Of a stretch of 64,000 nt of DNA, positions 6,564 through 23,876 are shown one piece after another (within the stretch, counting starts at the first letter, position 1; the number at the start of each line of letters is the position of its first letter). The DNA comes from Muriicola soli (lineage in GTDB: Bacteria; Bacteroidota; Bacteroidia; Flavobacteriales; Flavobacteriaceae), in assembly GCF_004139715.1 (NCBI RefSeq), contig NZ_CP035544.1, positions 496,001-560,000 on the forward strand. Direction: 5' to 3'. The position numbers and the translations under genes were made by a program. Below the pieces are notes generated by a model that searched no databases, had not been told where the DNA came from, and saw nothing but the letters and a program-made list of their open reading frames with translations.

Positions 6564-7331
6564 TCAGGGCTTGTAAACTAACGGTATAACCTCATTTTTA
6601 GCAAGGCGGTATTGATCAACTTCTTCCGCAGATAGTTCAGTAGAGTAGGGGACCGGCTTTACGATAAACCCTGCTATTTCGAGTTTTTTAAAATAATCCC
6701 TCCCGTATATCCTCACATGGTCGTATTGGCCAAAAATTTCAGCTCTTTCCTTTTTATCGGTGATGCTGTCGTCTTCAAAGGTCGTTTCCCTATCGAGCTC
6801 CTGAGGCACCTGAAAAATACCCCAGCCTCCGGGTTTCATCACGCGGAACAGTTCTGACATAGCTTTGCTGTCATCCGGGATATGTTCAAGGACGTGGTTA
6901 CACAGAATGATGTCATAAGTATTGTCCTCAAAAGGCAAATCGCAAATATCTGCCTTTACATCTGCCAGGGGGGAGTTGAGATCGGTAGTGGTATAATCGA
7001 GATTTTCCAACTTTTTAAATCGCTTATAAAATGCCTGTTCCGGAGCAAAGTGAAGGACCTTGAGTGATTTGTGAAAAAAATCGGTTTCTCTCCTCAGGTA
7101 AAGCCATAATAATCTGTGCCTTTCCAGAGATAAGGTAGAAGGTGAGAGAACATTTTCACGTGGATTCTCATAACCGTAGGGAAGAAATTTTCGAAATCTT
7201 TTGCCGTCGATAGGATCGGTATACTTATTTCCTTTGAGGGCGAAGGTCAAAAAGGGCCTCACCCAGTAACTCATTCTGATCAAAAGGGGTCGGGGAAATA
7301 GCTTCAGTATGTATTTAAAGACTCTTTTCAC
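6564..7331 (-). CDS. Class I SAM-dependent methyltransferase
   Basis: The 255-aa protein has a Methyltransf_11-type fold: KVLHFAPEQA in the SAM-binding region, YDIILCNHVLEHIPDD as the central motif and MKPGGWGIFQVP after it. The substrate cannot be told from sequence. No signal peptide or membrane anchor is evident, although the N-terminus is basic (MKRVFKYILKLFPRP) and may associate with membrane. It follows map by 15 bp on the same strand and is probably the last gene of a gpmI-map-methyltransferase unit. Its stop codon touches the apbE stop from the other strand. Confidence 0.85.
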   Translation of the reverse strand: MKRVFKYILKLFPRPLLIRMSYWVRPFLTFALKGNKYTDPIDGKRFRKFLPYGYENPRENVLSPSTLSLERHRLLWLYLRRETDFFHKSLKVLHFAPEQAFYKRFKKLENLDYTTTDLNSPLADVKADICDLPFEDNTYDIILCNHVLEHIPDDSKAMSELFRVMKPGGWGIFQVPQELDRETTFEDDSITDKKERAEIFGQYDHVRIYGRDYFKKLEIAGFIVKPVPYSTELSAEEVDQYRLAKNEVIPLVYKP

Positions 7332-7346
7332 CCCGTTGTAATAAGA

Positions 7347-8165
7347 TTAAAGCTGGAGTTTGGCCGCACGAAAGGCATCTTCCTCATCACTGACAATTCC
7401 GAGTGCCTCGTAAATATATTGAAAGGTAGAGAGCAGTTCTGGCTTCCCGTCGATCATGGCCACATCATGTTCAAAATGTGCACTGGGTTTTCCGTCGGCG
7501 GTTAAAATGGTCCAACCATCGCGCAACTGTTTTATTCTGCGTGTACCCATATTTACCATGGGCTCAATAGCGACCACCATCCCTTCAACAAATTTTTTAC
7601 CTCTTCCGCGCTTGCCGTAATTTGGCATTTCAGGCGATTCGTGTAAATCCTTGCCTAGTCCATGTCCTACTAATTCTCGAACAATACCGTAGCCTTCTGC
7701 TTCACAATGCTGCTGAATAGCAAAGGCTACATCACCTACGCGCTTGCCTATTCGGAATTGTTCAATACCCTTGTAAAGTGATTCCTTGGTTACCCTCAGT
7801 AATTTTTTTGTTGCCTCATCCACAGAACCCACTTCAAATGTATAGGCGTGGTCTCCGTAAAATCCATTTTTTAACGCTCCGCAATCGACGGATAAAATAT
7901 CTCCGTCTTTAAGTGCTTCATCGTTAGGGATTCCGTGAACAACCTGTGCATTCGGGCTTAAATTCAGCGTATTCGGAAAATCATACATTCCCAGAAATCC
8001 GGGTTCTGCTCCATGGTCCCTGATAAATTCCTCCGCCAGTTTGTCCAGGTGTAAACCCGTTACTCCTGGCTTCACCTCTTTGGCCAGCATACCCAGGGTT
8101 TTCGAGACGATCAAGGCGCTCTCGCGCATCAATTCAATTTCTTCCGAAGTTTTTACTAGAATCAT
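7347..8165 (-). CDS. map: Methionine aminopeptidase type I
   Basis: This 272-aa cytosolic enzyme removes the N-terminal Met from new proteins. All five metal ligands of the family are in place: Asp94 (SVDCGA), Asp105 (GDHAYTF), His168 (GHGLGKDLHE), Glu201 (AIEPMV) and Glu232 (FEHDVAM). No N-terminal zinc-finger extension is present, and the length is near the E. coli enzyme. The gene lies 12 bp after gpmI on the same strand. Confidence 0.97.
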   Translation of the reverse strand: MILVKTSEEIELMRESALIVSKTLGMLAKEVKPGVTGLHLDKLAEEFIRDHGAEPGFLGMYDFPNTLNLSPNAQVVHGIPNDEALKDGDILSVDCGALKNGFYGDHAYTFEVGSVDEATKKLLRVTKESLYKGIEQFRIGKRVGDVAFAIQQHCEAEGYGIVRELVGHGLGKDLHESPEMPNYGKRGRGKKFVEGMVVAIEPMVNMGTRRIKQLRDGWTILTADGKPSAHFEHDVAMIDGKPELLSTFQYIYEALGIVSDEEDAFRAAKLQL

Positions 8166-8177
8166 ATGGTTCTTAAA

Positions 8178-9695
8178 TTAAACTAATGATTTTTGGGTCA
8201 TGGCTGCGGGTTTATCAATTCCCATCATATGTAAAATGGTAGGCGCAATATCTCCCAGAACACCATCTTTTACTGCCTTGATATCCTTGTCAACTACGAT
8301 CAAAGGAACTGGGTTAGTGGTGTGGGCAGTATTCGGACTACCATCAGGGTTAATCATGGTATCGCAGTTCCCGTGATCAGCGATGATCAGAGAACTATAC
8401 CCGTGTTCTAGGCCTTTAGTAACGACCGCCTCAGCACAACTATCTACGGTTTCAACCGCTTTAATTGCAGCTTCCATGATACCGGTATGACCAACCATGT
8501 CGGGATTGGCAAAATTAAGACATACAAAATCGGCTTCTTCTTTCTCCAATTCACTGAGAATAGCATCCCTAATTTCATAGGCACTCATCTCTGGTTTAAG
8601 GTCGTAAGTCGCTACTTTAGGAGATGGACACATAATGCGTTGCTCTCCTTCAAAAGGAATTTCTCGTCCTCCGTTAAAGAAAAAGGTAACATGGGGATAT
8701 TTTTCTGTCTCCGCTATCCGTATTTGTTTTTTTCCTGCTTTAGCGAGAATTTCGCCTAAAGTATCCTGAAGATTTTCCTTGTCATAGACTACCTTGATCC
8801 CTTTAAACGAATCGTCGTAATTGGTGAGTGTAACGTAGTAAAGATTCAAGGTCTTCATCTCAAACTCAGGATGATCTTTTTGGGTAAGGACTTCAGTAAG
8901 TTCACGTCCGCGATCGGTCCTGAAATTAAAAAAGATCACTACGTCATCTTTTTGTATGGTTGTCAGAGCCTGTCCTCCTTTATCTGTAATTACAATAGGT
9001 TTTAGGAATTCATCCGTTAAGCCGTTTTCGTAGCTCTTTTGTATGGTCTGAGACACATCCGAAGTTTTCTCTCCACTTCCGTGAACTATAAGATCATAAG
9101 CAAGCTTAATGCGCTCCCAGCGTTTGTCCCGGTCCATGGCGTAGTATCGCCCGATAACGCTAGCTAATTTTGCATTCTTATCCCTGCAAAACGCTTGGAG
9201 GTTTTCAACGTAGCCCTTTCCACTTCTGGGATCAACATCACGTCCGTCAGTAAATGCATGGACAAAAACATTTGGCAGACCCTGGCCTTCTGCTGCCTTG
9301 ATCAACCCCTTTAAGTGATCGGTATGACTGTGAACGCCACCATCACTAAGCAGACCCAGTAAATGGACATTTTTTCCATTCTTTTTAGCGTACTCAAAAG
9401 CATCTCTGATCACCGGTTCATCCTTCATCTTGTCTTCTTCAACAGCCTTATTAATCTTGGCCAGGTCTTGATAGACAATTCTGCCTGCTCCCAGATTCAT
9501 GTGTCCTACTTCACTATTACCCATTTGTCCATCGGGTAATCCTACATTCATTCCATCGGTGAGGAGATTGCTATTTGGATATATCTTATACAAAGAACTA
9601 ACAAAAGGGGTATTGGCCTGATCCACAGCTGAGACTTTGGGATCTGGCGACTTTCCCCAGCCGTCAAGTATCATCAGAATAACTTTTTTGTGCAT
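8178..9695 (-). CDS. gpmI: 2,3-bisphosphoglycerate-independent phosphoglycerate mutase
   Basis: The protein has 505 aa, the usual length for the Mn2+-dependent enzyme. It begins MHKKVILMILDGWGKSP, with the first metal-binding Asp at 11. The catalytic Ser is at 61 in GNSEVGHMNLGAG. DGRDVDPRSG and the ADHGNCD metal motif near the C-terminus are also visible. It interconverts 3- and 2-phosphoglycerate in glycolysis. It is the first gene of the gpmI-map-methyltransferase run and has a TAnnTTTG element upstream at 9724-9731. Confidence 0.97.
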   Translation of the reverse strand: MHKKVILMILDGWGKSPDPKVSAVDQANTPFVSSLYKIYPNSNLLTDGMNVGLPDGQMGNSEVGHMNLGAGRIVYQDLAKINKAVEEDKMKDEPVIRDAFEYAKKNGKNVHLLGLLSDGGVHSHTDHLKGLIKAAEGQGLPNVFVHAFTDGRDVDPRSGKGYVENLQAFCRDKNAKLASVIGRYYAMDRDKRWERIKLAYDLIVHGSGEKTSDVSQTIQKSYENGLTDEFLKPIVITDKGGQALTTIQKDDVVIFFNFRTDRGRELTEVLTQKDHPEFEMKTLNLYYVTLTNYDDSFKGIKVVYDKENLQDTLGEILAKAGKKQIRIAETEKYPHVTFFFNGGREIPFEGEQRIMCPSPKVATYDLKPEMSAYEIRDAILSELEKEEADFVCLNFANPDMVGHTGIMEAAIKAVETVDSCAEAVVTKGLEHGYSSLIIADHGNCDTMINPDGSPNTAHTTNPVPLIVVDKDIKAVKDGVLGDIAPTILHMMGIDKPAAMTQKSLV

Positions 9696-9723
9696 TTCTA
9701 TGGATTAGTTTAGTACTATCCTA

Positions 9724-9731
9724 CAAAAATA
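9724..9731 (-). promoter_or_regulatory. Candidate -7 promoter element for gpmI
   Basis: TATTTTTG on the minus strand matches the Bacteroidota TAnnTTTG element and lies 29-36 bp upstream of the gpmI ATG. No clear -33 TTTG is seen, so the call rests on one box and position. Confidence 0.4.
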
Positions 9732-9902
9732 CTGCGATTTAACCGGGTTTGCCACATTTGAACATCCTTTTTCATTCCTGGTTGGATCTTCTGTAGCAAT
9801 GGTCACAAGGACTGACCTACAAGAATAGAAACGGAGTGTCGCCTGCGTTTATCTTGGGTGAAAATTGAAATTTTATTAGATCGGTCTGTTCGTAGATAAT
9901 TC

Positions 9903-10070
9903 CTAAAACTCGAATCCTGTAAAAGCCCTGTAAAAGAATGCATATAAAGCCATCAGTAACATCAAAGCACAAAATGCAGAATAGGCCTTTAAAAGAATTA
10001 CCAGAATTTCTGGTTTACAATCATCAAAGGCTTCCAGGTATAAATTTTTAAAGTGTACAAGTGTCCCCAT
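9903..10070 (-). CDS. Small membrane protein, 55 aa, DUF6747-like
   Basis: A short open frame runs from an ATG at 10068-10070 to a TAG at 9903-9905. It reads MGTLVHFKNLYLEAF, then KPEILVILLKAY, then a hydrophobic helix ending LYAFFYRAFTGFEF. I recall very similar short proteins in many flavobacteria (DUF6747), with the same KPEI motif, single helix and aromatic C-terminus. It stands alone between the M48 peptidase and gpmI. The function is unknown; a one-helix inner-membrane protein is the most that can be said. Confidence 0.7.
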   Translation of the reverse strand: MGTLVHFKNLYLEAFDDCKPEILVILLKAYSAFCALMLLMALYAFFYRAFTGFEF

Positions 10071-10189
10071 ATAGTCTTAGTGTAATTAAAGCTATAAGGG
10101 TTAAATCGGGCTTAAAATAGGATTTGGGAGAAACGCTAAGATAGAAAAAAAAGGACAGCATCCTAATTTTGATGGATTAATTACCTGAA

Positions 10190-10954
10190 TTACCCGCCTT
10201 TATACTTTTTAATAGAAGCTTTGATTTTGGCAATGCGGTTATCAGGGTCAGGGTGCGTGCTCTGAAATTCGGCTACCCGATTGGGCCCGGCAGCCTCTTT
10301 TAGGATCTCCATCACCCTGATCATTTCCCTGGGTTCATATCCCGACCTGATCAAAAAGAGAACACCCAGATCATCGCTTTCCAGTTCATCACCCCTTCCA
10401 TTTTTCAGCAAGGTATTCTGGCCGATGTTACTTACGATATTACCTGCATCAGCACCTACTTGTGCTCCCATACTCACCGTTCTCCAAAAATTGCTTTCCG
10501 CGATACGTTCTGCGGAATGCCTGCCGATAACATGGCCTATTTCATGACCGAGGACTCCCGCCAATTGGGCTTCATTGAGCTGAGAAAAAAGCGCGTAAGT
10601 AATAAATATCTGACCACCGGGAAGGGCGAAGGCATTAATCGTCTTATCGTCGGCCAGGAGGTGAAATTCGTATTCGTAAGGCGTCTCCCTGGCAATGCTG
10701 TTTTGAACCAGTTTATCTCCAACCGCATCTACATAAGCCTGCATGCGATTATCATTGTATAAACCACCGTATTGCTGGGCGATCTGAGGAGTACTTTGTA
10801 AGCCGATTGCGATTTCCTGCTCGGCTGTCATATTGATATTTTGCACCCTGCCGGTATAGGGATTTTTCTCCTTATTACTACAGCGTTGAACCATTGCAAA
10901 AGCAACGATCACCAGACCTATAAGAATTCTTAATTTCCAGCTCCCTCTTCTCAT
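10190..10954 (-). CDS. M48-family zinc metallopeptidase
   Basis: This 254-aa protein has an N-terminal hydrophobic helix (about 9-22), then a short linker and a peptidase domain. The zinc motif HEIGH is at 137-141 in VLGHEIGHVIGRHSAER, followed by ELESDDLGV as the probable third-ligand region. It resembles stand-alone periplasmic M48 proteases (BepA/LoiP-like), which act in envelope quality control. A Cys at 25 follows the helix, but the text before it (MVQRC) is a poor lipobox, so an uncleaved anchor is also possible. It lies 30 bp after the M15 peptidase and probably shares its transcript. Confidence 0.9.
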   Translation of the reverse strand: MRRGSWKLRILIGLVIVAFAMVQRCSNKEKNPYTGRVQNINMTAEQEIAIGLQSTPQIAQQYGGLYNDNRMQAYVDAVGDKLVQNSIARETPYEYEFHLLADDKTINAFALPGGQIFITYALFSQLNEAQLAGVLGHEIGHVIGRHSAERIAESNFWRTVSMGAQVGADAGNIVSNIGQNTLLKNGRGDELESDDLGVLFLIRSGYEPREMIRVMEILKEAAGPNRVAEFQSTHPDPDNRIAKIKASIKKYKGG

Positions 10955-10984
10955 GACCTGAAATTAAGATATTTTCTTGTAGAA

Positions 10985-11719
10985 TTATAATAGTACTGGA
11001 TTGATGTCGAGAATATTATCACGGATATAGGTCCTGATAAACCCGGTAGTCAGGAATTCACTACCGATAAAATCCTCTTCAATCAAAAGCTGAAGAATGT
11101 TTTTCTTTCTAAAGACCTCTAACATTGGTACTGACAAAGGGGCGTAGCTGTAATGCCAGGGTTCGTATTTAAATCCCCTGCGTTTAGGTTCCTTTGTATA
11201 AACGATGTAAAACCCATAATCACTGGCGTGTTCATCCATCCATAGTTTAAGATCTTCAAAAGGTCCTCCTTCTTCAAATTTAGAAGGATCTAATACATCG
11301 CCTTCCGCGGGCTTACTTGCGTCAATGATATCTATATCTGTCCCCCAATGATGCCTGCTGGTTCCGGGTATAGTAGAGTATTCAATAATTTTATCGATAG
11401 CTGCGAGAGGTTCCATGCCTTCGTCTTCGGAGTATTGTAAATACTTCCTTTCATATATGGCGAGTTGTCTGTCGAAACTCCGGAAACTGGAGACAATTTT
11501 AATATCTATCCCATCCTGATAAGCCGCCTTTTTCATTTCGAGGAAGGCATCATAAGCTTCCTTTCTGAGGTTAATACCTTCCCCATACAATTCAATATCT
11601 GCCTTGCCCATTAATTCTTCAAGGGAATATTTATCAGCCTGTGCCGAGCTATACTGTTGCCCTGAGAACATCAGGCAGATCAACATACTCAGTCGGATAT
11701 AAAATGATCGTTTATTCAT
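10985..11719 (-). CDS. M15-family D-alanyl-D-alanine carboxypeptidase-like protein
   Basis: This 244-aa protein has an N-terminal signal peptide ending near QQYSSAQA. The VanY/LdcB-type domain shows SSFRSFDRQLAIYERKY, the zinc motif GTSRHHWGTDIDI and the second motif EPWHYSYAP. Such enzymes trim peptidoglycan stem peptides in the periplasm. The M48 peptidase gene follows after 30 bp on the same strand, so two envelope hydrolases are probably made together. Confidence 0.9.
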   Translation of the reverse strand: MNKRSFYIRLSMLICLMFSGQQYSSAQADKYSLEELMGKADIELYGEGINLRKEAYDAFLEMKKAAYQDGIDIKIVSSFRSFDRQLAIYERKYLQYSEDEGMEPLAAIDKIIEYSTIPGTSRHHWGTDIDIIDASKPAEGDVLDPSKFEEGGPFEDLKLWMDEHASDYGFYIVYTKEPKRRGFKYEPWHYSYAPLSVPMLEVFRKKNILQLLIEEDFIGSEFLTTGFIRTYIRDNILDINPVLL

Positions 11720-11830: not shown

Positions 11831-12987
11831 TTAATTAGAAATGTACAAATACCCCTGGTGTTTCTGGCGAAGATCATGCATGGTAAGGATGTAAAAGTAT
11901 ATCCCTGATGACAAACCGGTTCCTCTTTCTATCACGCCTTCGCGATTCGACTGCCCGTTGAAGTTATTCTGATAATTCGCCTTAGAATAAACTAATACGC
12001 CGTACCTATTGAATATCTCCAGCATGTTATTCGGTGATTCATCAATTCCACCGAGAATGAGTTCATCATTAGCCCCGTCACCGTTTGGGGTCATAAAATA
12101 ATTGTCGAGGTCGATTGTAGAATAGGTCTCTAGGCGGTCATCATTTCCTCCGATGGTCAGGATCTCATAATCACTGGGGACAAAAACTTCTGAGGTTACT
12201 GAGCCGTATGCCATTCCCCCTTCAACCTGAGAATTCCCCAGGTTCACCCACTGGTTCTCAGATTTACTCCAGCCAACCACTTTGAGGTCGTTGAGGTATT
12301 CTGCCAGTGATCGTACATCACTATGCAAGTCCCAGGTAAGCGTAACCCTTGAAGGAACATCTCCTTCCAGGCGCCAGAATTCCGTATCGCTCACCGATAT
12401 AAAATCGGTTGCTTTGTTTGTAGTATCATAATCCTTGCTGAGTGTTACTGAATTATTCGGGTCTTCGAAGAAATAGGCACACCTTGCCATTGCATTTATG
12501 GCTACTGATTCTATCGTCAGAGGTCTTAAGCGGTCTTCATTACCCACCGGAAAGACGAAGGATTCTTTATTGGTCATAGCGCCATATCCATCAATTTTGG
12601 AAACACTACTCTCTCCAATATAAAAAGCATCGTCAAGGAAGTTTGAATAGACTGAGGAACCTGATTTCGCCGTGATAACATCTCCCGTCACCAGGTTTAC
12701 ATTGTTATGGACATTTAAGGCCGTTTCGAGTATTAGTCCGCCAACAGCGTCAATTTCTGCATCGTAAAGTACCGGGATATAAGCTCCGGAAATGGTCAGG
12801 GGGCATCGTCGCTGTAGAAGCCCACCACACCGGTATTTTGATCAAAGCTACCGTCATTGACCAGGTCCATATGGAAACCCACGTAGGTGTCGCCATGCAC
12901 CTGAATGGTACCGTAATTGTGTACGGCTTCCTGAGCCAGAAGCATTGCCGGAACAAAAAGGTAAATAAAGAGGAATTTATATTTCAT
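11831..12987 (-). pseudogene. T9SS type B sorting-domain protein, interrupted by a frameshift (partner protein of module A)
   Basis: The gene starts at 12987 with a signal peptide (MKYKFLFIYLFVPAMLLAQE) and stays open to a TGA at 12796-12798. The remainder continues in another frame down to 11831. The break is at a run of five C on the coding strand (12799-12803). Adding one C restores a continuous frame of about 385 aa that aligns throughout with the intact 381-aa neighbour at 16519-17664: GVVGFYSDDAP joins LTISGAYIPVLYDAEI as in the neighbour. The C-terminus has PNGDGANDELILGG and GIYFYILTMHDLR, the gliding-motility-type (type B) T9SS signal. It is either a true pseudogene, a phase-variable gene or a base-calling error. 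It lies 54 bp after the collagen-like gene. Confidence 0.8.
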
Positions 12988-13041
12988 TTTGTCAATGCAA
13001 ATTCTTTTTCAATACTTCTATATTTATTGAAATTCCCATTT

Positions 13042-16000
13042 TTAAAGTATATTGATCAATTGCCAGTTGGCACCATCGCTTTGAAGCCAAAGGGTCTTTT
13101 CCTTATCGATCTTGATTTCCGGATCACCTTTTTTATCGCGAAAACTGATGTTAGTTGTATTGTCGCCGTTAGCGGTATTCTTAAGGACGTAAATCCTTCC
13201 CTGGCAAGTATTTGCTGCCGGGAGGGTGATCGTTAGGTCTTTCGCGGTCATGATCAGTGTAAAATCATCAACTCCCAGAGTTGTGTTCACAGCAGTTGAA
13301 CGGATAGGGGTAGAGAAGGATCCTATTGTGGATAAACGCGATGTAGGCGTGGATGTTCCGATTCCGACACTACCATTAGTGAAGCCCAGGTTTTGGTTGT
13401 TCATGTTATAGGTTCGGGTCTCAGCATCCTGGGTAAGATCATCGCTAGCAAGGTTGACCAGTACAGGCAAGGTAACCGTATTCCCTCCCATACCTGAGAT
13501 GGTTAGGTCCCGGCCTATTAGGGATAGGGTCTGTATCTCATTATTTGGGTTGGCGTCTGCATCATCTGTATTAATCGTGATAGTATTTCCTCCGCTGATG
13601 CTGATATTGCCTGGGTTATTGTCTGTTGAGAGCGCCTGGTCATCAGTAGCCGGATCGCCGGGAATACCCTGAGGTCCTTGTGGCCCTTGCGGTCCTTGAG
13701 GACCCGGATCTCCCTGTGGTCCTTGTGCTCCGTCAGCACCGTCAGCGCCATCAGCACCGTCTAGTCCTGCCGGACCCTGCGGTCCCTGAGGCCCTTGTGG
13801 CCCAGGATCTCCCTGTGGTCCTTGAGCACCATCAGCTCCGTCAGCACCGTCTAATCCTGCAGGTCCAACTGGCCCTTGCGGTCCTTGGGGACCCGGATCA
13901 CCCTGTGGTCCTTGTGCGCCGTCAGCTCCGTCAGCTCCATCGGCACCGTCTAATCCTGCAGGCCCCTGTGGTCCCTGAGGTCCGGGGTCACCTTGTATTC
14001 CTTGTGGGCCTTGCGGACCCGGATCACCCTGTGGTCCTTGTGCGCCATCAGCTCCGTCAGCTCCATCGGCACCGTCTAATCCTGCAGGCCCCTGAGGTCC
14101 TTGCGGTCCCGGGTCACCTTGTATTCCTTGTGGGCCTTGTGGCCCAGGATCTCCCTGTGGTCCTGGTGCTCCATCGGCACCATCAGCACCATCCAATCCT
14201 GCCGGACCCTGTGGTCCTTGTGGTCCCGGATCTCCTTGTATCCCTTGTGGTCCTTGCGGTCCTTGAGGACCGGGATCACCTTGTATTCCTTGTGGTCCAG
14301 GATCACCCTGTGGTCCTTGAGCACCATCAGCTCCGTCAGCACCATCGGCACCGTCTAATCCTGCTGGTCCCTGGGGTCCCTGCGGTCCCGGATCTCCTTG
14401 TATCCCTTGTGGTCCTTGCGGTCCTTGAGGACCGGGATCACCTTGTATTCCTTGTGGTCCAGGATCACCCTGTGGTCCTTGAGCGCCATCAGCTCCGTCA
14501 GCACCATCGGCACCATCTAATCCTGCTGGTCCCTGCGGTCCCTGAGGCCCTTGCGGTCCCGGATCTCCTTGCATTCCTTGTGGGCCTTGTGGCCCCGGGT
14601 CTCCTTGTGGTCCTTGAGCGCCGTCAGCCCCGTCAGCCCCGTCTAGTCCTGCCGGTCCCTGAGGCCCTTGTGGTCCTTGCGGACCCGGATCACCCTGTGG
14701 TCCTTGCGGACCCGGATCACCCTGTGGTCCTTGAGCACCATCAGCACCATCTGCACCATCTACTCCTGCAGGTCCCTGGGGTCCTTGCGGTCCGGGGTCA
14801 CCTTGTATTCCTTGTGGTCCCTGCGGTCCTGGATCGCCTTGTATTCCTTGAGGCCCAGGATCTCCCTGTGGTCCTTGAGCACCATCGGCACCGTCTAATC
14901 CTGCTGGCCCCTGAGGTCCCTGTAGTCCCGGGTCTCCCTGAGGTCCTTGTGATCCCGGATCTCCTTGTATTCCTTGTATTCCTTGAGGCCCAGGATCTCC
15001 CTGCGGTCCTTGTGCGCCATCGGCACCATCAGCACCATCCAATCCTGCCGGACCCTGTGGTCCCTGCGGTCCCGGGTCTCCCTGAGGTCCTTGAGCTCCA
15101 TCGGCACCGTCTAATCCTGCTGGTCCCTGGGGTCCCTGCGGTCCCGGATCTCCTTGTATCCCTTGTGGTCCTTGCGGTCCTTGAGGACCGGGATCACCTT
15201 GTATTCCTTGTGGTCCAGGATCACCCTGTGGTCCTTGAGCGCCATCAGCGCCATCAGCTCCGTCAGCACCATCGGCACCATCTAATCCTGCTGGTCCCTG
15301 CGGTCCCTGAGGCCCTTGCGGTCCCGGATCTCCTTGCATTCCTTGTGGGCCTTGTGGCCCCGGGTCTCCTTGTGGTCCTTGAGCACCGTCAGCACCATCG
15401 GCACCATCTAATCCTGCTGGTCCCTGCGGTCCCTGTGGTCCTTGTGCGCCATCGGCACCATCCAATCCTGCTGGTCCCTGCGGTCCCTGGGGTCCTTGCG
15501 GTCCCGGATCTCCTTGAATTCCTTGTGGTCCAGGATCTCCCTGTGGTCCTTGAGCACCATCAGCTCCGTCAGCACCATCGGCACCGTCTAATCCTGCTGG
15601 TCCCTGCGGTCCCTGTGGTCCTTGCGGTCCTTGTGCGCCATCAGCGCCATCGGCACCATCCAATCCTGCGGGTCCCTGCGGTCCCGGGTCACCTTGTATT
15701 CCTTGTGGTCCTTGAGCGCCGTCAGCCCCGTCAGCCCCGTCTAGTCCTGCCGGTCCCTGAGGCCCTTGTGGTCCTTGAGCACCATTAGCACCATCGGCAC
15801 CATCCAATCCTGCAGGTCCCTGTGGTCCCTGCGGTCCGGGGTCACCTTGTATTCCTTGTGGGCCTTGCGGACCCGGATCTCCCTGTGGTCCTTGAGCGCC
15901 ATCAGCTCCGTCAGCTCCATCGGCACCGTCTAATCCTGCTGGCCCCTGAGGTCCCTGCGGTCCCGGGTCTCCTTGTGGTCCTTGTGGTCCTGTCAGATCA

Positions 16001-16383
16001 GAGGAGGTAAAAGAAGTACCGTCTGAATAGTTGATCGTAAAGGTTCCATTGTTGTTGTCTTCAAAGGTGAAAGTACCTTTGTTAGCTGAGCTATTACAAA
16101 GATCTATCCATTGAGAACCTTCGTAGTAAAAAACGCAGTCGTCATCTGTGTTGTAAACCAGGGCACCGCGTAATGGTTTAATGCTCTGCATCTGTAGCGT
16201 GGTCACTCGAGTAAGTACAAAAGCCTTGCTGGTGCTTTCCAATTCAATGATGGAAGCTGAATTAATCTGATTGGGATTTTCCCCGATCTTTACCTGGGCC
16301 GTCAGGACCTGACCCAAAAGAAGAACTGTGAGGAATAAAAAGCTTTTTGTGTCCATTGTAAAAAATTTGCGCATATTTTTCAT
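13042..16383 (-). CDS. Collagen-like secreted fibre protein (module A)
   Basis: This 1113-aa protein has a signal peptide ending near LTAQ (residue 30), then a head domain of about 100 residues. The head ([47 protein letters not shown]) is the type found at the start of many Bacteroidota fibre-like proteins. Residues 132-911 are 260 uninterrupted Gly-X-Y triplets built from [18 protein letters not shown] and GIQ. The final 202 residues form a non-collagen C-terminal domain with [20 protein letters not shown], like phage-tail or trimeric-fibre tips. No T9SS sorting signal is present on this protein itself; the neighbour carries one. Starts at Met1, Met4 or Met10 are all possible, and Met10 also gives a complete signal peptide. 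Confidence 0.9.
13651..15990 (-). repeat. Collagen-like Gly-X-Y repeat block, 260 triplets
   Basis: 2,340 bp encode 780 residues of perfect Gly-X-Y in frame. DNA-level copies are visible: the same block of about 90 bp starting GGTCCCGGATCTCC (plus strand) occurs at 14222, 14384 and 15140, at spacings of 162 and 756 bp. Both spacings are multiples of 27. This suggests growth by recombination between in-frame units, and any gain or loss of units keeps the reading frame. Confidence 0.95.
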
Positions 16384-16390
16384 AGCCTAG

Positions 16391-16398
16391 TAAAAATA
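16391..16398 (-). promoter_or_regulatory. Candidate -7 element before the collagen-like gene
   Basis: TATTTTTA on the minus strand matches TAnnTTTG at seven of eight positions and ends 8 bp before the first ATG. If used, the transcript would begin at about that ATG, which would favour a leaderless start or an internal Met. Confidence 0.3.
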
Positions 16399-16426
16399 GC
16401 GCACAGTCCCGGGCAGCCGGAATTAT

Positions 16427-16458
16427 TGTTGTGAAGTGATCGAAAGCTGTTGTGAAGT
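16427..16458. promoter_or_regulatory. Pair of 11-bp direct repeats upstream of the collagen-like gene
   Basis: TGTTGTGAAGT occurs exactly at 16427-16437 and again at 16448-16458, 21 bp apart (two helical turns), in the 135-bp gap between the T9SS protein and the collagen-like gene. The position, 44-75 bp upstream of the start, suits an activator site. The protein that binds is unknown. Confidence 0.5.
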
Positions 16459-16518
16459 CAGAAAACCTCGCGAGATACCGAAAATATGGTACTTCAGCGA
16501 GTAAGATTCGCCTTACAT

Positions 16519-17664
16519 CTAACGTTCCAGGAATAAAAAACCCTGGAAATTAAGACTCAGATCGTCCATGGTAATGATATAAAAATAGAGCCCTTCAGGG
16601 AGGCCAATTCCTCGATTCAGGACTGTATTTTCCACATTGGATATCCCCGTAAATTCATCCCGGTAATTTTCCATCTGAAAGACTTTTAAACCCCTGCGGT
16701 CGTAGATTTCCAGGCGGTTATTAGGAGATTGCTCCAGCTCAGGGATTTGTAGAAAATCATTGATACCGTCGCCATTGGGTGAAATGTAGTAATTATCCAG
16801 GGTTAGAAGATCTTCCGCAATTGCCAGACTGCCAAAAGTGATGATTTCAAAATCATCCGGAATAAAGGGCCCTGATGTAACAAAACCAGCATTGAGATCA
16901 CCCCCAACTGCTGTAGTTCCTAAAGGAAGCCATTGTTGGGCAACTTTATTCCAGCCCATGATCAGGACGTTACCTACTTCTTCAGCGATAAACGAAAGAT
17001 TGCTTCTGGCATTCCAACTCAGCGTTACCGTTGAGGTAACCGAGCCTTCAAGTCGCCAGAATTCAAAGGTGCTGACAGCCTCAACCGTTCTGGGCTTAAT
17101 CTGGGTGTTAAAGGGATTAAATGTGGAAGGGAAATTGGGATCTTCGTAGAAATAGGCACACTTTGAAAAGGGATTGGTTGCCTCAGAATTGAGGATCAAA
17201 GGCCTGATCTCAGCAGCATCACCCACAGGAAAAGTAAAGCTTTGTTGCCCCGACATGGAGGCATAACCATCTACCTTGGAAACATTGCTTTCCCCAACGA
17301 AAAAGGCATCCTGAAGGAATTCATAAAACAGCTGTGGTTCAGCCTTGTTCGTCCTGAAATCTCCGGAAATAAAATTGGTATTATTGCGCACGTTGACGCT
17401 GGTATTAAGGATTACTCCACCATCAGCTGCAATTTCCACATCAAAAAAGACCGGATTAAGGGCTCCCGAAACTTCAAGGGAAGAAGGGCTGTAAAAGCCC
17501 ACAAGACCAAGGTTATCGTCAAAGATACCATCATTGATCAGGTTAGCGTGGAAGCCCAGCTGACCCTGGTCATGGATTCGCAGGTTCCCGCTGTTATAGA
17601 GGGCGGGTTGGGCTACACTACGAGAGCATAGAAGAAGAAATATTGGAATTATGATATTCTTCAT
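16519..17664 (-). CDS. T9SS type B sorting-domain protein (partner protein of module B)
   Basis: This 381-aa protein has a signal peptide ending near SRSVAQ (about residue 19). The body is beta-rich and of unknown function (GQLGFHANLINDGIFDDN, FFVGESNVSKVDGYASM, FTFPVGDAAEIRPL). The C-terminus has DNYYISPNGDGINDFLQIP and GLPEGLYFYIITMDDL, typical of the gliding-motility-associated type B T9SS signal that sends proteins across the outer membrane. The gene starts only 3 bp after the long repeat protein and is surely co-transcribed with it. A frameshifted paralogue lies at 11831-12987 after the collagen-like gene, so the pair arrangement is duplicated. Confidence 0.9.
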   Translation of the reverse strand: MKNIIIPIFLLLCSRSVAQPALYNSGNLRIHDQGQLGFHANLINDGIFDDNLGLVGFYSPSSLEVSGALNPVFFDVEIAADGGVILNTSVNVRNNTNFISGDFRTNKAEPQLFYEFLQDAFFVGESNVSKVDGYASMSGQQSFTFPVGDAAEIRPLILNSEATNPFSKCAYFYEDPNFPSTFNPFNTQIKPRTVEAVSTFEFWRLEGSVTSTVTLSWNARSNLSFIAEEVGNVLIMGWNKVAQQWLPLGTTAVGGDLNAGFVTSGPFIPDDFEIITFGSLAIAEDLLTLDNYYISPNGDGINDFLQIPELEQSPNNRLEIYDRRGLKVFQMENYRDEFTGISNVENTVLNRGIGLPEGLYFYIITMDDLSLNFQGFLFLER

Positions 17665-17667
17665 AAC

Positions 17668-20600
17668 TTAAAAATCAATAATCGAGAAATACCAAAATGC
17701 ATCTAAATTGGTAATATCATCTGGATCTTTTATTTGAACAGTAAAGTCTGTTGCTGTCTGCCCAATAACCTGTATTGAAGCACCTGAAAGCGTAGCTCTT
17801 AATGTTAATTGTACAACGTAATTAGTAGAACTGGCGGGACTGGTAAAATTTACCCTATAATTACCAATGCCCAAATCAGTAATCGAAGCAATATTCTGAC
17901 CGTTTATTACCCCTCCCAGGGCACCGTCAACCAGTGCGCCATTTATAAATCCTAAGGCATGGAAAACACTGGAAGGGCCTGAAGCAGACACCTCATCAAT
18001 TGCTCCCTGAACATCCGTGGCAATAAGTCCAGAAGAGGTATTATCATAGGTAACTTGGGCGGCATTTTGGATCTCATTATTGGGATCCGCATCGGCATCG
18101 TCAGTATTTAATGCTGCGAGTTCTGCATCGGTGGCAAAGGTCGGATCAAGATCCAGGGGTAGAGTGCCTCCCGCATCTGTGAGCTGAACCGTTGTTCCCG
18201 CCAAGGTGAGGTTTGTATTGAGTTCGTTATTTGGATCAGCATCTGCATCGTCAGTATTTAATGCTGCGAGTTCCGCATCTGTTGCAAAAGTGGGATTGAG
18301 ATCCAGGGGAAGCGTACCCCCTGCATCTGTAAGTTGTACCGTTGTTCCCGCCAAGGTGAGGTTTGTATTGAGTTCGTTATTTGGATCTGCATCTGCATCG
18401 TCAGTATTTAGAGCTGCGAGTTCCGCGTCGGTGGCAAAGGTCGGATCAAGATCCAGGGGCAGCGTGCCTCCTGCATCGGTAAGCTGTACAGTCGTTCCCA
18501 CCAGAGTGAGGGTTGAATTGAGTTCGTTGGTCGGATCTGCATCGGCATCGTCAGTATTTAGAGCTGCGAGTTCTGCGTCGGTGGCAAAGGTCGGATCAAG
18601 ATCCAGGGGCAGCGTGCCTCCTGCATCGGTAAGCTGTACAGTCGTTCCCACCAGAGTGAGGGTTGAATTGAGTTCGTTGGTCGGATCTGCATCGGCATCG
18701 TCAGTATTTAGAGCTGCGAGTTCTGCGTCGGTGGCAAAGGTCGGATCAAGATCCAGGGGCAGAGTGCCTCCTGCATCGGTAAGCTGTACAGTCGTTCCCG
18801 CCAGAGTGAGGTTTGTATTGAGTTCGTTATTTGGATCTGCATCGGCATCGTCAGTATTTAGAGCTGCGAGTTCTGCGTCGGTGGCATAGGTCGGATCAAG
18901 ATCCAGGGGCAGAGTGCCTCCTGCATCGGTAAGCTGTACAGTCGTTCCCGCCAGAGTGAGGTTTGTATTGAGTTCGTTATTTGGATCTGCATCTGCATCG
19001 TCAGTATTTAGAGCTGCGAGTTCTGCATCGGTGGCAAAGGTCGGATCAAGATCCAGGGGCAGAGTGCCTCCTGCATCGGTAAGCTGTACAGTCGTTCCCG
19101 CCAGTGTGAGGGTCGAATTGAGTTCGTTGGTTGGATCTGCATCAGCATCATCAGTATTTAGTGCCGCGAGTTCTGCATCGGTGGCAAAAGTAGGATCAAG
19201 ATCCAGGGGCAGAGTGCCCCCTGCATCGGTAAGCTGTACAGTCGTTCCCGCCAGAGTGAGGTTTGTATTGAGTTCGTTGGTCGGATCTGCATCGGCATCG
19301 TCAGTATTTAGTGCCGCGAGTTCAGCATCGGTGGCAAAGGTCGGATCAAGATCCAGGGGCAGCGTACCTCCTGCGTCTGTGAGCTGAAGCGTTGTTCCCG
19401 ACAGGGTGAGGGTTGAATTGAGTTCGTTGGTCGGATCCGCATCGGCATCGTCAGTATTTAGAGCTGCGAGTTCTGCATCGGTGGCAAAGGTCGGATCAAG
19501 GTCCAGGGGCAGCGTACCTCCTGCATCGGTAAGCTGAACCGTCGTTCCCGTCAGGGTAAGGGTTGAATTGAGTTCGTTGGTCGGATCCGCATCGGCATCA
19601 TCAACATTTAAAACTATAGTACTTCCATTGTCAATAGTTATGTTTCCAGCACTGTTATCAGTACTGATATCCTGATTGTCTCCTCCCGCCGCCAATTCAT
19701 CCAATGCTCCCTGAACGTCGTTTGCTGTTAGTAATCCTGTGACAGTATTATCATAAGGATTGCTGCTTGCACGTGTATCTATAACTACGTCACTTCCATC
19801 ATTGTTGGTAAAAGTGTAAGTGCCGTCACCCAGATCCGTTATATCTGATTTAGAAATTATTACAGGAATCGAATTTTCATTGGTATAGGTAAAAGTACCA
19901 TCGGTATTGTCTACTATAGAGGTAATTGTCTCCCCGCTCGCGGCGGAATCTACATTGAGATAGAGTCTGCCATCCGTACCAAAAATAAGATTGTTATTGA
20001 CATCTGTACTAATCAGATTTTCGCTGATAGGCCCAGCTGCGTCGGTGATTTCAAGTGCACCTGCAACCATGGCAACACTGGAGTTTAATTCATTTGTGTC
20101 GTCAAAATCGCCGTCCTCTACGTTCAGTACGATAGTATTTCCTGTTTCGATACTGATATTGCCCGGGTTACCATCTGTAGAAATGATTTGATCATCTGAT
20201 CCTCCCGCCACTGCCGTGCTTACCTCATCAATGGCGGCTTGTACGTCTGTAGCAAAAAGGTTGCCAAGTACAGTATTGTCAAAAGGCAAAGCCGCTGCAT
20301 TAAAATCGAGAATAATATCAGTACCATCATTATTGGTGAAGTTATATGTGCCATCACCGTTATCCGTTATATCAGCTTTAGCCACGGTATCTTGCGAGCC
20401 ATCTTCCTTAACGAAAGTGACAAGTCCATCACCATTGTCAATTAAACTGGTGATTGTTTCATTGATATCCGTATTAGTCCCATCGGGCTGAGTGAGGGTG
20501 GCGATCAAATTTCCTGCAACGGTATTAGTTACAGTGAGACCATTGGTTGTGATAGTAACGTCAACACCATCATTGTTGGTAAAAGTATAGGTGCCATCGC

Positions 20601-22032
20601 CATTATCTGTGATATCAGCTTTAGCCACGGTATCTTGCGAGCCATCTTCCTTAACGAAAGTGACAAGTCCATCGCCATTGTCTATTAAACTGGTGATTGT
20701 TTCATTGATATCCGTATTAGTCCCATCGGGCTGAGTGAGGGTGGCGATCAAATTTCCTGCAACGGTATTAGTTACAGTGAGACCATTGGTTGTGATAGTA
20801 ACGTCAACACCATCATTGTTGGTAAAAGTATAGGTGCCATCGCCATTATCTGTGATATCCGCTTTAGCCACGGTATCCTGTGTGCCATCTTCCTTAACGA
20901 AAGTGACCAATCCATCGCCATTGTCTATTAAACTGGTGATTGTTTCATTGACATCTGTATTTGTTCCATCGGGCTGAGTGAGGGTGGCAATCAAATTTCC
21001 GACAACGGTATTAGTTACAGTGAGACCATTGGTTGTGATAGTAACGTCAACACCATCATTGTTGGTAAAAGTATAGGTGCCATCGCCATTATCTGTGATA
21101 TCAGCTTTGGCTACAGTATCCTGTGTGCCATCTTCCTTGGTAAAAGTAATAAAGCCATCTCCTGCGTCAGTGAGGTTGGTAATCGTTTCGTTAATATTTG
21201 TACTGCTGCCATCAGACAGAGTAATTGTTGCAATAAGGTTGCCTGCAACTGTGTTGGTGATAGTAAGACCGTTGGTGGTGATTAATTGAATATTTCCCAT
21301 GGAGTCGGAAAAACTGTAGGTTCCATCCCCATTATCCACTAGCGAAATAGTGGTTACGGCCACATCCAGATCGTTTAAAGCAGTCTGCACCGGAGCAAGG
21401 TCCAGAAATGCCCCGTTATCACTTCCGGGAATAATAGAATTTCCTGCATCGGCACTGACAATGGCTGCACTGGTTATATACCCGGCGTCATTGGTAAAGT
21501 CGCTTAAAGTTACCTGGGCGTAGTCTATTTCAGCATCAGAGACAGTGTTGTCCTGTAGTTCTTCATTTCCCACAGAATCGGGCGCAAGTTTTGAAGAGGT
21601 AATGGCATTGTTCTGAATATCCACACTCGTGATTGTAAAATCTACAATATTCTGTCCGCGGATCTCACGAACTTCAAAATTCACATTGTCCTCACTCTCA
21701 GTAATGACTATAGTGCTGTAGTCGTTAAAAATGGGATCGGCCGTAAAGGTTAGCCTGAGTGCATCACAGAGATTGATCCATTCTGTACCCTCAAAATAAA
21801 ACAGGCACTGTTCATCAGTATTGTAGATCATGGCTCCCGGCAATGGATTTATAGCATTCATTTGGGCCGTAGTGATCCGAGTAATGACAAATACCCTATT
21901 AGAGCTTTCCAGTTCAAGAACTGAAGAAGGGTCCAGGTTTTGTGGGTTATCTCCGATCTTTATCTGTGAGTAGAGTCCGGCAGATAAAACCATCAGCATT
22001 GCTGTCATTAAAATTCTTCGTTTCATCATCAA
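17668..22032 (-). CDS. Large repetitive secreted fibre-like protein (module B)
   Basis: This 1454-aa protein has a signal peptide (cleavage near LYSQ, about 23) and a head domain homologous to that of the collagen-like protein: KIGDNPQNLDPSSVLELESS, then GAMIYNTDEQCLFYFEGTEW. Four 81-aa repeats follow at residues 231-554 (ITDNGDGTYTFTNNDG type), then ten 50-aa repeats at 809-1308 (NTDDADADPTNELN, TDAGGTLPLDLDPTFATDAE). DNTVTGLLTANDVQGALDEL-like motifs at three places resemble phage tail-fibre text. The C-terminal about 130 residues form a separate beta-rich tip. It has no T9SS signal; the gene 3 bp downstream has one. A surface fibre or adhesin is the likely role, but this is inference. Confidence 0.9.
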   Translation of the reverse strand: MMMKRRILMTAMLMVLSAGLYSQIKIGDNPQNLDPSSVLELESSNRVFVITRITTAQMNAINPLPGAMIYNTDEQCLFYFEGTEWINLCDALRLTFTADPIFNDYSTIVITESEDNVNFEVREIRGQNIVDFTITSVDIQNNAITSSKLAPDSVGNEELQDNTVSDAEIDYAQVTLSDFTNDAGYITSAAIVSADAGNSIIPGSDNGAFLDLAPVQTALNDLDVAVTTISLVDNGDGTYSFSDSMGNIQLITTNGLTITNTVAGNLIATITLSDGSSTNINETITNLTDAGDGFITFTKEDGTQDTVAKADITDNGDGTYTFTNNDGVDVTITTNGLTVTNTVVGNLIATLTQPDGTNTDVNETITSLIDNGDGLVTFVKEDGTQDTVAKADITDNGDGTYTFTNNDGVDVTITTNGLTVTNTVAGNLIATLTQPDGTNTDINETITSLIDNGDGLVTFVKEDGSQDTVAKADITDNGDGTYTFTNNDGVDVTITTNGLTVTNTVAGNLIATLTQPDGTNTDINETITSLIDNGDGLVTFVKEDGSQDTVAKADITDNGDGTYNFTNNDGTDIILDFNAAALPFDNTVLGNLFATDVQAAIDEVSTAVAGGSDDQIISTDGNPGNISIETGNTIVLNVEDGDFDDTNELNSSVAMVAGALEITDAAGPISENLISTDVNNNLIFGTDGRLYLNVDSAASGETITSIVDNTDGTFTYTNENSIPVIISKSDITDLGDGTYTFTNNDGSDVVIDTRASSNPYDNTVTGLLTANDVQGALDELAAGGDNQDISTDNSAGNITIDNGSTIVLNVDDADADPTNELNSTLTLTGTTVQLTDAGGTLPLDLDPTFATDAELAALNTDDADADPTNELNSTLTLSGTTLQLTDAGGTLPLDLDPTFATDAELAALNTDDADADPTNELNTNLTLAGTTVQLTDAGGTLPLDLDPTFATDAELAALNTDDADADPTNELNSTLTLAGTTVQLTDAGGTLPLDLDPTFATDAELAALNTDDADADPNNELNTNLTLAGTTVQLTDAGGTLPLDLDPTYATDAELAALNTDDADADPNNELNTNLTLAGTTVQLTDAGGTLPLDLDPTFATDAELAALNTDDADADPTNELNSTLTLVGTTVQLTDAGGTLPLDLDPTFATDAELAALNTDDADADPTNELNSTLTLVGTTVQLTDAGGTLPLDLDPTFATDAELAALNTDDADADPNNELNTNLTLAGTTVQLTDAGGTLPLDLNPTFATDAELAALNTDDADADPNNELNTNLTLAGTTVQLTDAGGTLPLDLDPTFATDAELAALNTDDADADPNNEIQNAAQVTYDNTSSGLIATDVQGAIDEVSASGPSSVFHALGFINGALVDGALGGVINGQNIASITDLGIGNYRVNFTSPASSTNYVVQLTLRATLSGASIQVIGQTATDFTVQIKDPDDITNLDAFWYFSIIDF
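18109..19608 (-). repeat. Ten tandem 150-bp (50-aa) repeats
   Basis: Exactly 1,500 bp. Each unit begins with an NTDDADADP-type segment (NVDDADADP in the first) and ends DAELAAL. Units differ mainly at TNELNSTLTL versus NNELNTNLTL and at A, V, T or S before GTT, in a shuffled order that suggests gene-conversion-like exchange between units. The Asp-rich segment could bind calcium, though no experimental basis is known to me. Confidence 0.95.
20371..21342 (-). repeat. Four tandem 243-bp (81-aa) repeats
   Basis: Exactly 972 bp. Each unit has the form (I/L)xDNGDGTY, TTNGLT(V/I)TNTV, GNLIAT, NETIT, DxGDG, then VAKAD. The two most recent units differ by very few bases, and the first (start at 21342) is the most diverged. 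A fifth partial unit continues as ITDNGDGTYNFTNNDG. Confidence 0.95.
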
Positions 22033-22339
22033 ATATTTACATCATAAAGAGGGCAGCTACAAAAGTAGGATTATATCGGTATCGGACTAAAGATACCCCC
22101 CGAAATACTCAAATTATGGGTAAATCACCCACGATTAATTGTATTGCTGCTTATTGAGTTAATTTTTGTAATTTCTTCTTAAAAATTATGGGTTTGCGAT
22201 TTGACTTACCTTACTTTTTAACATAAGTTTTATGATTCATTATTTTTTTATGAGTCGAACTTATTTTTTCTTTAACCGCTCAGGGGATTCAGGTCTCTAT
22301 TCTAATTTCAAATGTGCGTTTGATGCACTCATACCATAC
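22033..22339. promoter_or_regulatory. Divergent promoter region between module B and the 22340 gene
   Basis: This is a 307-bp AT-rich gap. On the minus strand TACTTTTG (22060-22067) matches TAnnTTTG, with a weak TTTA about 20 bp further upstream; it serves the 22032 gene with a short leader. On the plus strand TTTG at 22200-22203 is followed after 20 bp by TAAGTTTT (22224-22231, seven of eight), a candidate promoter for the 22340 gene. Nothing else is recognised here. Confidence 0.45.
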
Positions 22340-23089
22340 ATGAAACAACTGTTATTTCTCTTATCAGCACTTATCTTCACTTCCTTTGGCTATTCCCAAT
22401 CCGACGATCGCCGCCCATTAAGGGGGCAGGTAATTTACAGGAATGTGCCCGTAGCCAATGAAAACGTAATTAATACCACCACTGAAAAAGCTACGATAAC
22501 CAATAACAAGGGAGAATTCCTGATCTATGTAGCAGAAGGGGACGAATTGGTCTTTACCGCCATCAATTATCAGATCGAGATTCTGAATGTAACAGCGGAG
22601 ATCCTTAAAAGAAACCGATTGGTAGTTGAGGTAAATGAAAAAGTCACTGAACTGGATGAAGTAACTGTCAGTCCCGAAAATCAGAAGAAGTTCCTACAAT
22701 TGCAAAACGAGGAATTCAAACAATACGCCTACGAAACCGATGCCACTGCAGAAGTGCAAAATATTGCCCTGGATCCCACAGTAAGGGGTATGCAGGACGG
22801 CCTCAATTTTGTCAATATCTTTAAAGCCCTTTTTCTTTCCGGAAATGCCGATAATGAAACAGGTAGAACCCCATTAAAAGTTAGTGAGGTTCTTCGTCAG
22901 GTTTATGACGATGACTTTTTTGTCCTCGATCTGCAATTACCCCAGGATAAGATCGATGCTTTCCTAATTTACTGCGATAATAAACTGCCGGCTCAATCAC
23001 TTTTGAGAAAGGACAATGAATTTCAATTGATCGAATTTCTGGTCACTCAAAGTAAGGAATTCAGAAAAGGGCTCGATGTGGAAGAATAA
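22340..23089 (+). CDS. Secreted protein with carboxypeptidase-regulatory-like domain
   Basis: 249 aa from the ATG at 22340 (MKQLLFLLSALIFTSFGYSQ), which gives a clean signal peptide. A longer frame opens at 22232, but that start lies at the putative promoter. The N-terminal third is a CarboxypepD_reg-like beta-sandwich (LRGQVIYRNVPVANENV, ITNNKGEFLIYVAEGDEL), the type used as a plug or linker domain in Bacteroidota envelope proteins. The rest is not recognised. The next gene overlaps it by 14 bp and has the same architecture, so the two are a related pair. Confidence 0.8.
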   Translation: MKQLLFLLSALIFTSFGYSQSDDRRPLRGQVIYRNVPVANENVINTTTEKATITNNKGEFLIYVAEGDELVFTAINYQIEILNVTAEILKRNRLVVEVNEKVTELDEVTVSPENQKKFLQLQNEEFKQYAYETDATAEVQNIALDPTVRGMQDGLNFVNIFKALFLSGNADNETGRTPLKVSEVLRQVYDDDFFVLDLQLPQDKIDAFLIYCDNKLPAQSLLRKDNEFQLIEFLVTQSKEFRKGLDVEE

Positions 23090-23876
23090 TTGGCTGCTAT
23101 TTGCTTTCCTGATTGTCGTTTCTCTCGTGAATGGGCAGTCCTACTTTAATTTTGAATTGGAAGGACAAACCAGGTTTGATGGAAAAGGAGTTCCCGATGT
23201 TCATATCATGAATACTACGGCCGATAAAGCCACTATTTCTGATCAAAACGGCAGATTCTCCATTACAGCCACCATGGGAGATACCTTGCTTTTTTCTGCC
23301 CTACAGTACCAAAGAAAAACCTTAGTCGTTTCAGCGTCTATCCTGGAGAGTAGTTATGTCTATATTACCCTGGAAGAATTTGTAAATGAACTTGATGAGG
23401 TGGTGGTACGCCCGTTCAACCTTTCCGGGGATTTGAGCAGAGATATGGATGGGATGAGGGTTAAAAATGTAGTCTCGGCATCTACCCTTGGTCTGCCCAA
23501 CTCCAATGTAAAACCTTTGATCCAAAGCGAACGTCTGCTCAAGGAAGCTTCTATGGGACCTTTTCAAATAGGTATGCTCACGGCCATTCCCTTTAACCCT
23601 TTGATCAATATGATTACAGGTCGAACAAAAATGCTCAAAAAGAGAGTGGCGAGAGATAAGAAATACCTGCTCACAGAACAGGTTCGCAATTATTATCCGG
23701 ATAGTATTTTTGTAAAAAGACTGGGAATACCAACTGAGCGTATTGACGATTTTATGTACTATTGCGAAGTGGATGAGAGTTTTGATTCTATAGTGTCAAC
23801 AGAAGATCAAATAGCCATCTTAAACTTGCTCATGATGAAAAGCAAGTCCTACAGGGAAAATAATCAACTCAAATGA
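23076..23876 (+). CDS. Secreted protein with carboxypeptidase-regulatory-like domain (paralogue of the previous gene)
   Basis: This 266-aa protein has a signal peptide ending near LVNGQ. Its CarboxypepD_reg-like N-terminus (GKGVPDVHIMNTTADKATI, DQNGRFSITATMGDTLLF) is followed by ELDEVVVRP and an unrecognised C-terminal half. Both this protein and its neighbour end with a similar region (DSIFVKRLGIPTERIDDFMYYC here; an IDAFLIYC match in the neighbour). The start overlaps the upstream gene by 14 bp. Location is probably periplasm or outer membrane. The function is unknown. Confidence 0.8.
   Translation: MWKNNWLLFAFLIVVSLVNGQSYFNFELEGQTRFDGKGVPDVHIMNTTADKATISDQNGRFSITATMGDTLLFSALQYQRKTLVVSASILESSYVYITLEEFVNELDEVVVRPFNLSGDLSRDMDGMRVKNVVSASTLGLPNSNVKPLIQSERLLKEASMGPFQIGMLTAIPFNPLINMITGRTKMLKKRVARDKKYLLTEQVRNYYPDSIFVKRLGIPTERIDDFMYYCEVDESFDSIVSTEDQIAILNLLMMKSKSYRENNQLK

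Follow-up and report, generated by a model that had tools for sequence, protein, structure and literature searches.

Substrates of the type IX secretion system (T9SS) are known as carriers of their own C-terminal signal. Type B C-terminal domains (CTDs) require PorP/SprF-like shuttles, according to the accessible part of PMC12618676, and in the accessible part of PMC9143113 type B proteins are proposed to remain anchored by such shuttles. The same part of PMC12618676 describes an orphan SprF-like shuttle of Flavobacterium johnsoniae that serves three orphan type B proteins, and reports that through the CTD of one of these three a smaller share of molecules ends up on the gliding track; SprF binds the track protein GldK via a Cys-X-Cys tail (PMC12635249, accessible part). 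The locus described here lies in a 64,000-nucleotide stretch of Muriicola soli DNA (G000:C1:496001-560000, hereafter the window), inside a complete 3.07-Mb genome. On the minus strand it contains, in order, fibre B, partner B, fibre A and partner A: two modules, each pairing a gene for a long, repetitive fibre protein with a gene for a short partner bearing a T9SS type B sorting domain. This fibre-partner module is real and conserved, and we consider it probable, though well short of assured, that it constitutes a split T9SS type B adhesin, in which a CTD-bearing base is combined with an exchangeable fibre that has no CTD.

Fibre B (17668-22032, minus strand) is 1454 amino acids (aa) in length and has a signal-peptide-like start, a phage-tail-fibre-like head (about 21966-21727), a repeat shaft and a C-terminal tip. 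The shaft is built from an 81-aa repeat (a 243-nucleotide [nt] unit in 3.4 copies, 20323-21138) and a 50-aa repeat (a 150-nt unit in 10.2 copies, 18083-19610). The TTG codon at 22032 is probably not the true start, to judge from the ATG codons that come directly after it. Fibre A (13042-16383, minus strand, 1113 aa) has the same head (about 16296-16057), again behind a signal-peptide-like start (both N-termini were read by eye), followed by a collagen shaft of 260 Gly-X-Y triplets in one run (Pfam Collagen, E = 2e-125) and a tip of class T4. The two heads, each of approximately 70-80 residues, are 45% identical (E = 4e-28 and 6e-28), and neither fibre matches CHU_C, TIGR04131 or TIGR04183 at E 0.1; a shared signal/head domain and the lack of a T9SS C-terminus had both been put forward in an original prediction made for this locus. 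That prediction also described the middles of the fibres as unrelated, which fits the contrast between 81-aa and 50-aa repeats and collagen but not residues ~937-1034 of fibre A, behind the collagen, which resemble the 50-aa repeat region of fibre B (36%, E = 1e-8). Within the genus, the 1454-aa fibre B of the window has counterparts of 270 aa (L052) and 293 aa (L053). Fibre A scores 415 bits, above the cut-off, with the NCBIfam model for the LPXTG adhesin SclB. As its translation has no LPXTG at the C-terminus, membership was rejected: the score reflects collagen composition and is likely a misannotation.

Both fibres have tail-fibre matches in PHROGs, those of fibre A arising largely via the collagen and those of fibre B lying in the repeats (E = 2e-16) and the tip (E = 2e-5). 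Nine viral models match a model of the head with E values of 0.001 or lower (probability 1.00, query TM only approximately 0.45, most targets unnamed), one of them a phage collagen-repeat protein, and proteins named as tail fibres follow at E 0.005-0.009. A search of solved structures with the head alignment returned weak matches (best E 0.61).

Partner B (16519-17664, minus strand, 381 aa) has a signal-peptide-like start, a beta-rich body (model pLDDT mostly 80-97) and a C-terminal T9SS type B sorting domain. Partner A (11831-12987, minus strand) is frame-broken: the frame from the ATG at 12987 stops at 12798-12796, giving a 63-codon piece (12987-12796), and homology resumes in another frame, which ends at 11831 and encodes the type B CTD and the bulk of the body. 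Against partner B, the first and second pieces align to residues 5-61 (42% identity) and 62-379 (46% identity). The second piece and partner B score 41.9 and 37.2 bits with TIGR04131 (cut-off 35), and 91.1 and 82.7 bits with CHU_C (cut-off 27). Homology of the partners over their full length and a type B C-terminus in both, as originally proposed, are upheld; partner A, however, does not form one uninterrupted open reading frame (ORF). The frame break, near 12,797, adjoins a short C run within this complete genome, and intact copies of partner A are present in same-genus genomes (L051, L052); the break may be either real or a sequencing error. When the partner B model (mean pLDDT 79.8) was compared with the Protein Data Bank (PDB) using Foldseek, no match was found at E 0.001 or better; 8glk_D, one chain (75 residues) of a substrate-bound T9SS complex, was returned with a probability of 0.99 and E 0.26, a match that presumably lies over the CTD of the modelled partner. 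The match to GhpA of Aureispira involves only the CTD portion of the partner profile (positions 295-380, E = 2e-10). PHROGs gave no match for the partner.

The module recurs in other genera. At E 1e-20, partner B has matches in 19 of the 99 genomes searched (its own genome counted), four of which (G021, G022, G024, G038) hold a distant kind of partner, and in 20 loci of genome_contigs, including those of Maribacter, Cellulophaga, Flagellimonas and Pricia. Cut-offs were chosen after viewing the gaps in the score lists: at least 370 bits for a close partner (next lower match 162) and at least 84 bits for a canonical head (next lower match 60). The close-partner set comprises 51 distinct genes in 42 loci; apart from partner A, each is read in one frame and is 378-421 aa long, save for L065, which its contig cuts at 297 aa. 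A canonical-head gene lies upstream on the same strand within the fetched stretch for 31 of the 51, and just past the stretch edge for three more (L058 continuing L057; L063, with the head at G058:C9:81919; and L066, with the head at G011:C89:43632 and seven ORFs between). For the remaining 17, a contig end (for L040 also an assembly gap) is reached before any upstream head, which is expected because long repeats break assemblies. Thus, a fibre gene with a canonical head precedes every one of the 34 close partners whose upstream side is traceable. The head-bearing gene is the immediate neighbour in 21 of the 31 cases, with small extra genes between in the rest. Locus L066 (G011, 2-11282, with L108) is an expanded array, in which a head-bearing gene and then seven ORFs, with several tip classes, precede one partner.

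Spacing is also short. Fibre B and partner B are separated by 3 bp, and fibre A ends 54 bp from the start of partner A at 12987; over the whole set, the partner start lies at -104 to +60 bp relative to the end of the directly upstream gene in 45 of 50 cases, distances that use the leftmost start codon and hence exaggerate overlaps (with partner A listed at 350 bp as a result of its frame break).

Among 100 genomes sampled from the family, each from a different genus, 17 have both head and partner, three have the head only, none has the partner only and 80 have neither (Fisher P = 1.7e-16), partners being counted here and below among the matches listed (at most 19 candidates per genome were scored). 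The sample holds 33 canonical heads: 21 are followed downstream by a partner on the same strand of the same contig, eight are at contig ends (G122:C7, G026:C12, G045, G122:C5, G138, G129, G123 and G104:C604) and four are exceptions. Conversely, 21 of the 26 partners have a head and five are near contig ends (G122:C5, G122:C15, G026:C6, G123:C11 and, by position, G138:C5, 755 bp from the contig start). Adjacency of head and partner in other genera, which had been set in advance as a check, thus held in most decidable cases.

Head and partner also diverge together. Across 32 modules, head and partner distances are correlated with a Mantel r of 0.70, against at most 0.26 in 2000 permutations, and re-pairing inside nine multi-module genomes or loci reached the observed value in 2 of 1536 arrangements, the true pairing included. 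This co-divergence demonstrates that head and partner are stably linked, not that they bind. Together with the co-occurrence and spacing given above, it led us to reject chance neighbourhood as an explanation.

The distal parts of the fibres are more variable. Single-linkage clustering of the final 100 residues, taken from 86 genes upstream of partners, yields 17 tip classes, and among module pairs with a partner identity above 58% the tip class is the same in 10 of 18 and different in eight. The suggestion that repeat content is exchanged between copies was borne out, as shaft and tip swaps are also seen across modules. Pfam S74 and C1q, which would have named suspected tips, have no match on the nine proteins checked. 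At L097 (G106, 3363-10798), one partner is flanked by two fibres whose N-terminal sequence is identical over the part compared; the second, partnerless fibre is possibly a duplication or a spare tip cassette.

A more distant branch of partners is linked to secretion genes. Sixteen members were examined (L067-L070, L079-L085, L109-L112 and L148), namely all 13 listed relatives that score 100-162 bits and whose match extends into the body, two with lower scores and one from a class-wide sample; for L110 and L112 the body match comes from the genus-sample partner search, a later body profile having found the CTD only. A PorP/SprF-type gene lies directly downstream in 15 of the 16 (14 by Pfam, L148 by eye), the exception being L111. 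The gene after it, in the five loci that were run (L067, L069, L079, L080 and L109), encodes PD40 with TPR, CarboxypepD_reg or OmpA domains, a layout that we take to be that of PorE. Fibre-like genes are found upstream in the same gene run for 12 of 15 decidable members (mostly by eye; L112 begins at a contig end and is undecidable), and the fibre adjoins the partner in six (L068, L069, L080, L084, L109 and L110). Pfam backs the fibre assignment in L069 (collagen) and L084 (collagen and YadA_head). In L148, a fibre of 1574 aa comes first, then a protein of 801 aa whose head is of the same kind (by eye), the partner, the SprF-like gene and the PorE-like gene; in the class-wide sample of 198 genomes, partner matches at 1e-30 occur only in the window genome and the genome of L148. 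At L067, an 800-aa protein between fibre and partner (5955-8357) matches an L-type lectin family weakly, short of the cut-off. The original prediction had described the module without this SprF/PorE-linked version, the small extra genes between fibre and partner or the partner A frame break.

We propose that the short partner, with its signal peptide, beta-rich body and type B CTD, would be an exported, anchored base, and that its CTD would be recognised by a PorP/SprF-like outer-membrane shuttle. The long upstream protein would be a phage-tail-fibre-like adhesin, probably trimeric, without a C-terminal export signal of its own. The partner would hold the fibre at the surface and perhaps also take it through the SprA translocon. 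Contact would most likely be made via the constant N-terminal head, and the variable shaft and tip would therefore point outwards. Head-partner binding, co-export, trimerisation and orientation are features that we infer; the observations themselves are the conserved linkage, the co-divergence of head and partner, the variable shafts and tips, the restriction of the CTD to the partner and the SprF-type genes after distant partners.

Several observations weigh against this proposal. The partner of module A is broken in the window genome. Four of 25 decidable canonical heads have no downstream partner: L093 (G014), the second fibre of L097 (G106), L104 (G058:C45, where none was found within the 4.4 kb read downstream) and L105 (G009:C12, a fibre cluster). 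Weaker head matches occur in further proteins of the 100-genus sample (E 1e-7 to 1e-16), and 13 such genes in five fetched loci (L086-L090) have neither a partner nor a CTD match; a head therefore need not always have a partner. In the distant branch, fibre and partner are separated by one or two further secreted proteins at six of the 12 loci with an upstream fibre (L067, L070, L079, L081, L082 and L148), and three of the 15 decidable members (L083, L085 and L111) have no same-orientation fibre upstream. Partners are slightly closer in same-tip modules (by 0.04, a difference that 2 of 2000 permutations attained), and tip class is thus not wholly independent of partner relatedness. The head model is fair at best overall, with a mean pLDDT of 63.7 and confident residues at ~31-70. 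Linkage and co-divergence would also result if two neighbours were simply inherited together.

A somewhat unlikely alternative is that the partner serves as a surface anchor only: exported alone by the T9SS, it would dock a fibre that had left the cell by another route. The signal-peptide-like proteins of L086-L090, with heads but neither CTD match nor neighbouring partner, indicate that another exit route may exist, and the anchoring of type B proteins by PorP-like proteins that is proposed in the accessible part of PMC9143113 would suit such a role. Set against this, no alternative exporter gene was noticed by eye in the modules. We know of no export route for CTD-less fibre proteins of this kind.

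No shuttle is encoded near the window modules. The window genome encodes SprA, GldJ and eight PorP_SprF genes, none of which (0/8) is inside the window, and the window partners are therefore 'orphan' type B proteins. Two of the eight PorP_SprF proteins end in a Cys-X-Cys tail. One adjoins a 4485-aa type B (SprB-like) gene and the other is an orphan (G000:C1:324483-325475; L113, L144), the nearest listed type B gene being ~8.6 kb off, beside another SprF-type gene. Among the 30 best loci for the orphan protein, 23 tails were correctly read and all 23 are C-x-C. Sensor-kinase-like and LytTR-like response-regulator genes were seen by eye close downstream of the orphan gene. Its use as a marker of module-bearing genomes was rejected, as matches, those to SprF itself among them, occur in 91 of 100 genomes, and G138, which bears a partner, has only a 36% match. 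The orphan protein, with its Cys-X-Cys tail, is the leading candidate for the shuttle of the window partners; given SprA, GldJ and this gene, the window fibres might ride gliding tracks. In the most specific version of the proposal, the fibre, CTD-less, folded, trimeric and derived from phage, would travel through SprA as the passenger of a small type B carrier, which would then hold it on an SprF-like shuttle, with static fibres in the SprF/PorE modules and, in orphan modules such as those of the window, a borrowed conserved orphan Cys-X-Cys SprF that would place collagen and repeat fibres on moving gliding tracks. This version as a whole is speculative, and we regard it as unlikely.

Less plausible again is that fibre and partner are co-regulated but separate adhesins, sharing an operon and a function and making no contact. 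The evidence is genetic linkage throughout, and the partner's own beta-rich domain could be an adhesin; however, no close partner occurs without a head in the 100 genera, head and partner remain matched within genomes, and partners are short and uniform in length whereas the fibres vary. That the fibres are phage or tailocin tail fibres and the partner a phage protein, as the PHROGs matches (for fibre A mostly collagen) and the phage likeness of the head model might suggest, is scarcely credible, and a prophage origin of the locus was rejected, given that the partner has a T9SS sorting domain and no PHROGs match, the fibre N-termini are signal-peptide-like by eye, nothing resembling a phage structural gene was noticed next to the modules and the chromosomal flank genes are conserved in several genera.

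The likely promoter region of the cluster (22045-22110, minus strand) precedes fibre B and contains a TAnnTTTG box at 22067-22060, which is kept in 4 of 4 aligned genus members and which we take to be the Bacteroidota -7 box. Module B is separated from module A by 135 bp (16384-16518, minus strand). Apart from the broken frame of partner A, the ORFs agree with the gene order, strand and coordinates first given for the four genes. Window neighbours include VanY (Pfam), a CarbopepD_reg_2-like gene (31.4 bits, just below the cut-off of 32.2) and, named by eye, M48 peptidase, gpmI and M1 peptidase genes. Comparison of the window with L091, L092, L094-L097 and L099-L101 (relatives' genes named by eye, flanks partly visible in some) shows that one flank, with CarbopepD_reg-like genes, a ~165-170-aa gene and a large peptidase, is common to several genera, as is VanY with an M48-type gene on the opposite flank. 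Other clusters are found at different sites, e.g. L064, L098 and L105. Two adjacent secreted proteins at 22232-23876, divergent from fibre B, keep their position in several genera; the first is the CarbopepD_reg_2-like gene just under cut-off.

If the split system is true, proteins without a CTD can be exported or displayed by the T9SS with the help of a partner, and secretome predictions that rely on CTDs would therefore overlook the actual adhesins. The surface location of long phage-fibre-like flavobacterial proteins would likewise be explained, and the system would mark a chromosomal site common to several genera as one where fibres vary. The SprF/PorE-linked version would allow a test in a genetically tractable flavobacterium that carries it. 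The open-licence papers searched gave no account of a short type B protein that pairs with a CTD-less fibre, which is weak evidence of absence.

Each of the known systems shares part of this architecture. Phage tail fibres (PHROGs families and phage proteins of BFVD) may be alike in head fold, and resemble the window fibres in their repetitive or collagen shaft and variable C-terminal tip; here, by contrast, there is a signal peptide, a chromosomal locus and a T9SS partner, and no phage genes were noticed. The bacterial collagen-like adhesins Scl1/Scl2 and Lcl have a long Gly-X-Y shaft in common with fibre A, which differs from them in head and tip and in lacking LPXTG. F. johnsoniae operons of type B, PorP/SprF and in some cases PorE-like genes, such as Fjoh_3952-3951-3950 (accessible part of PMC12618676), likewise encode a type B CTD protein, and 15 of our 16 distant relatives share with them the PorP/SprF-type gene downstream and, in the five loci run, a next gene of PorE-like layout. 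In contrast to that operon, the CTD protein here is short (~340-440 aa) and has CTD-less fibre genes upstream (the comparison covers Fjoh_3952 and its downstream genes), and the window version has no nearby shuttle gene. The SprB/SprF gliding adhesin (accessible part of PMC12635249) also has a type B CTD, and a Cys-X-Cys SprF-like shuttle is present in the window genome; however, SprB is a single giant polypeptide with its own CTD, whereas here the fibre and the CTD are on separate proteins.

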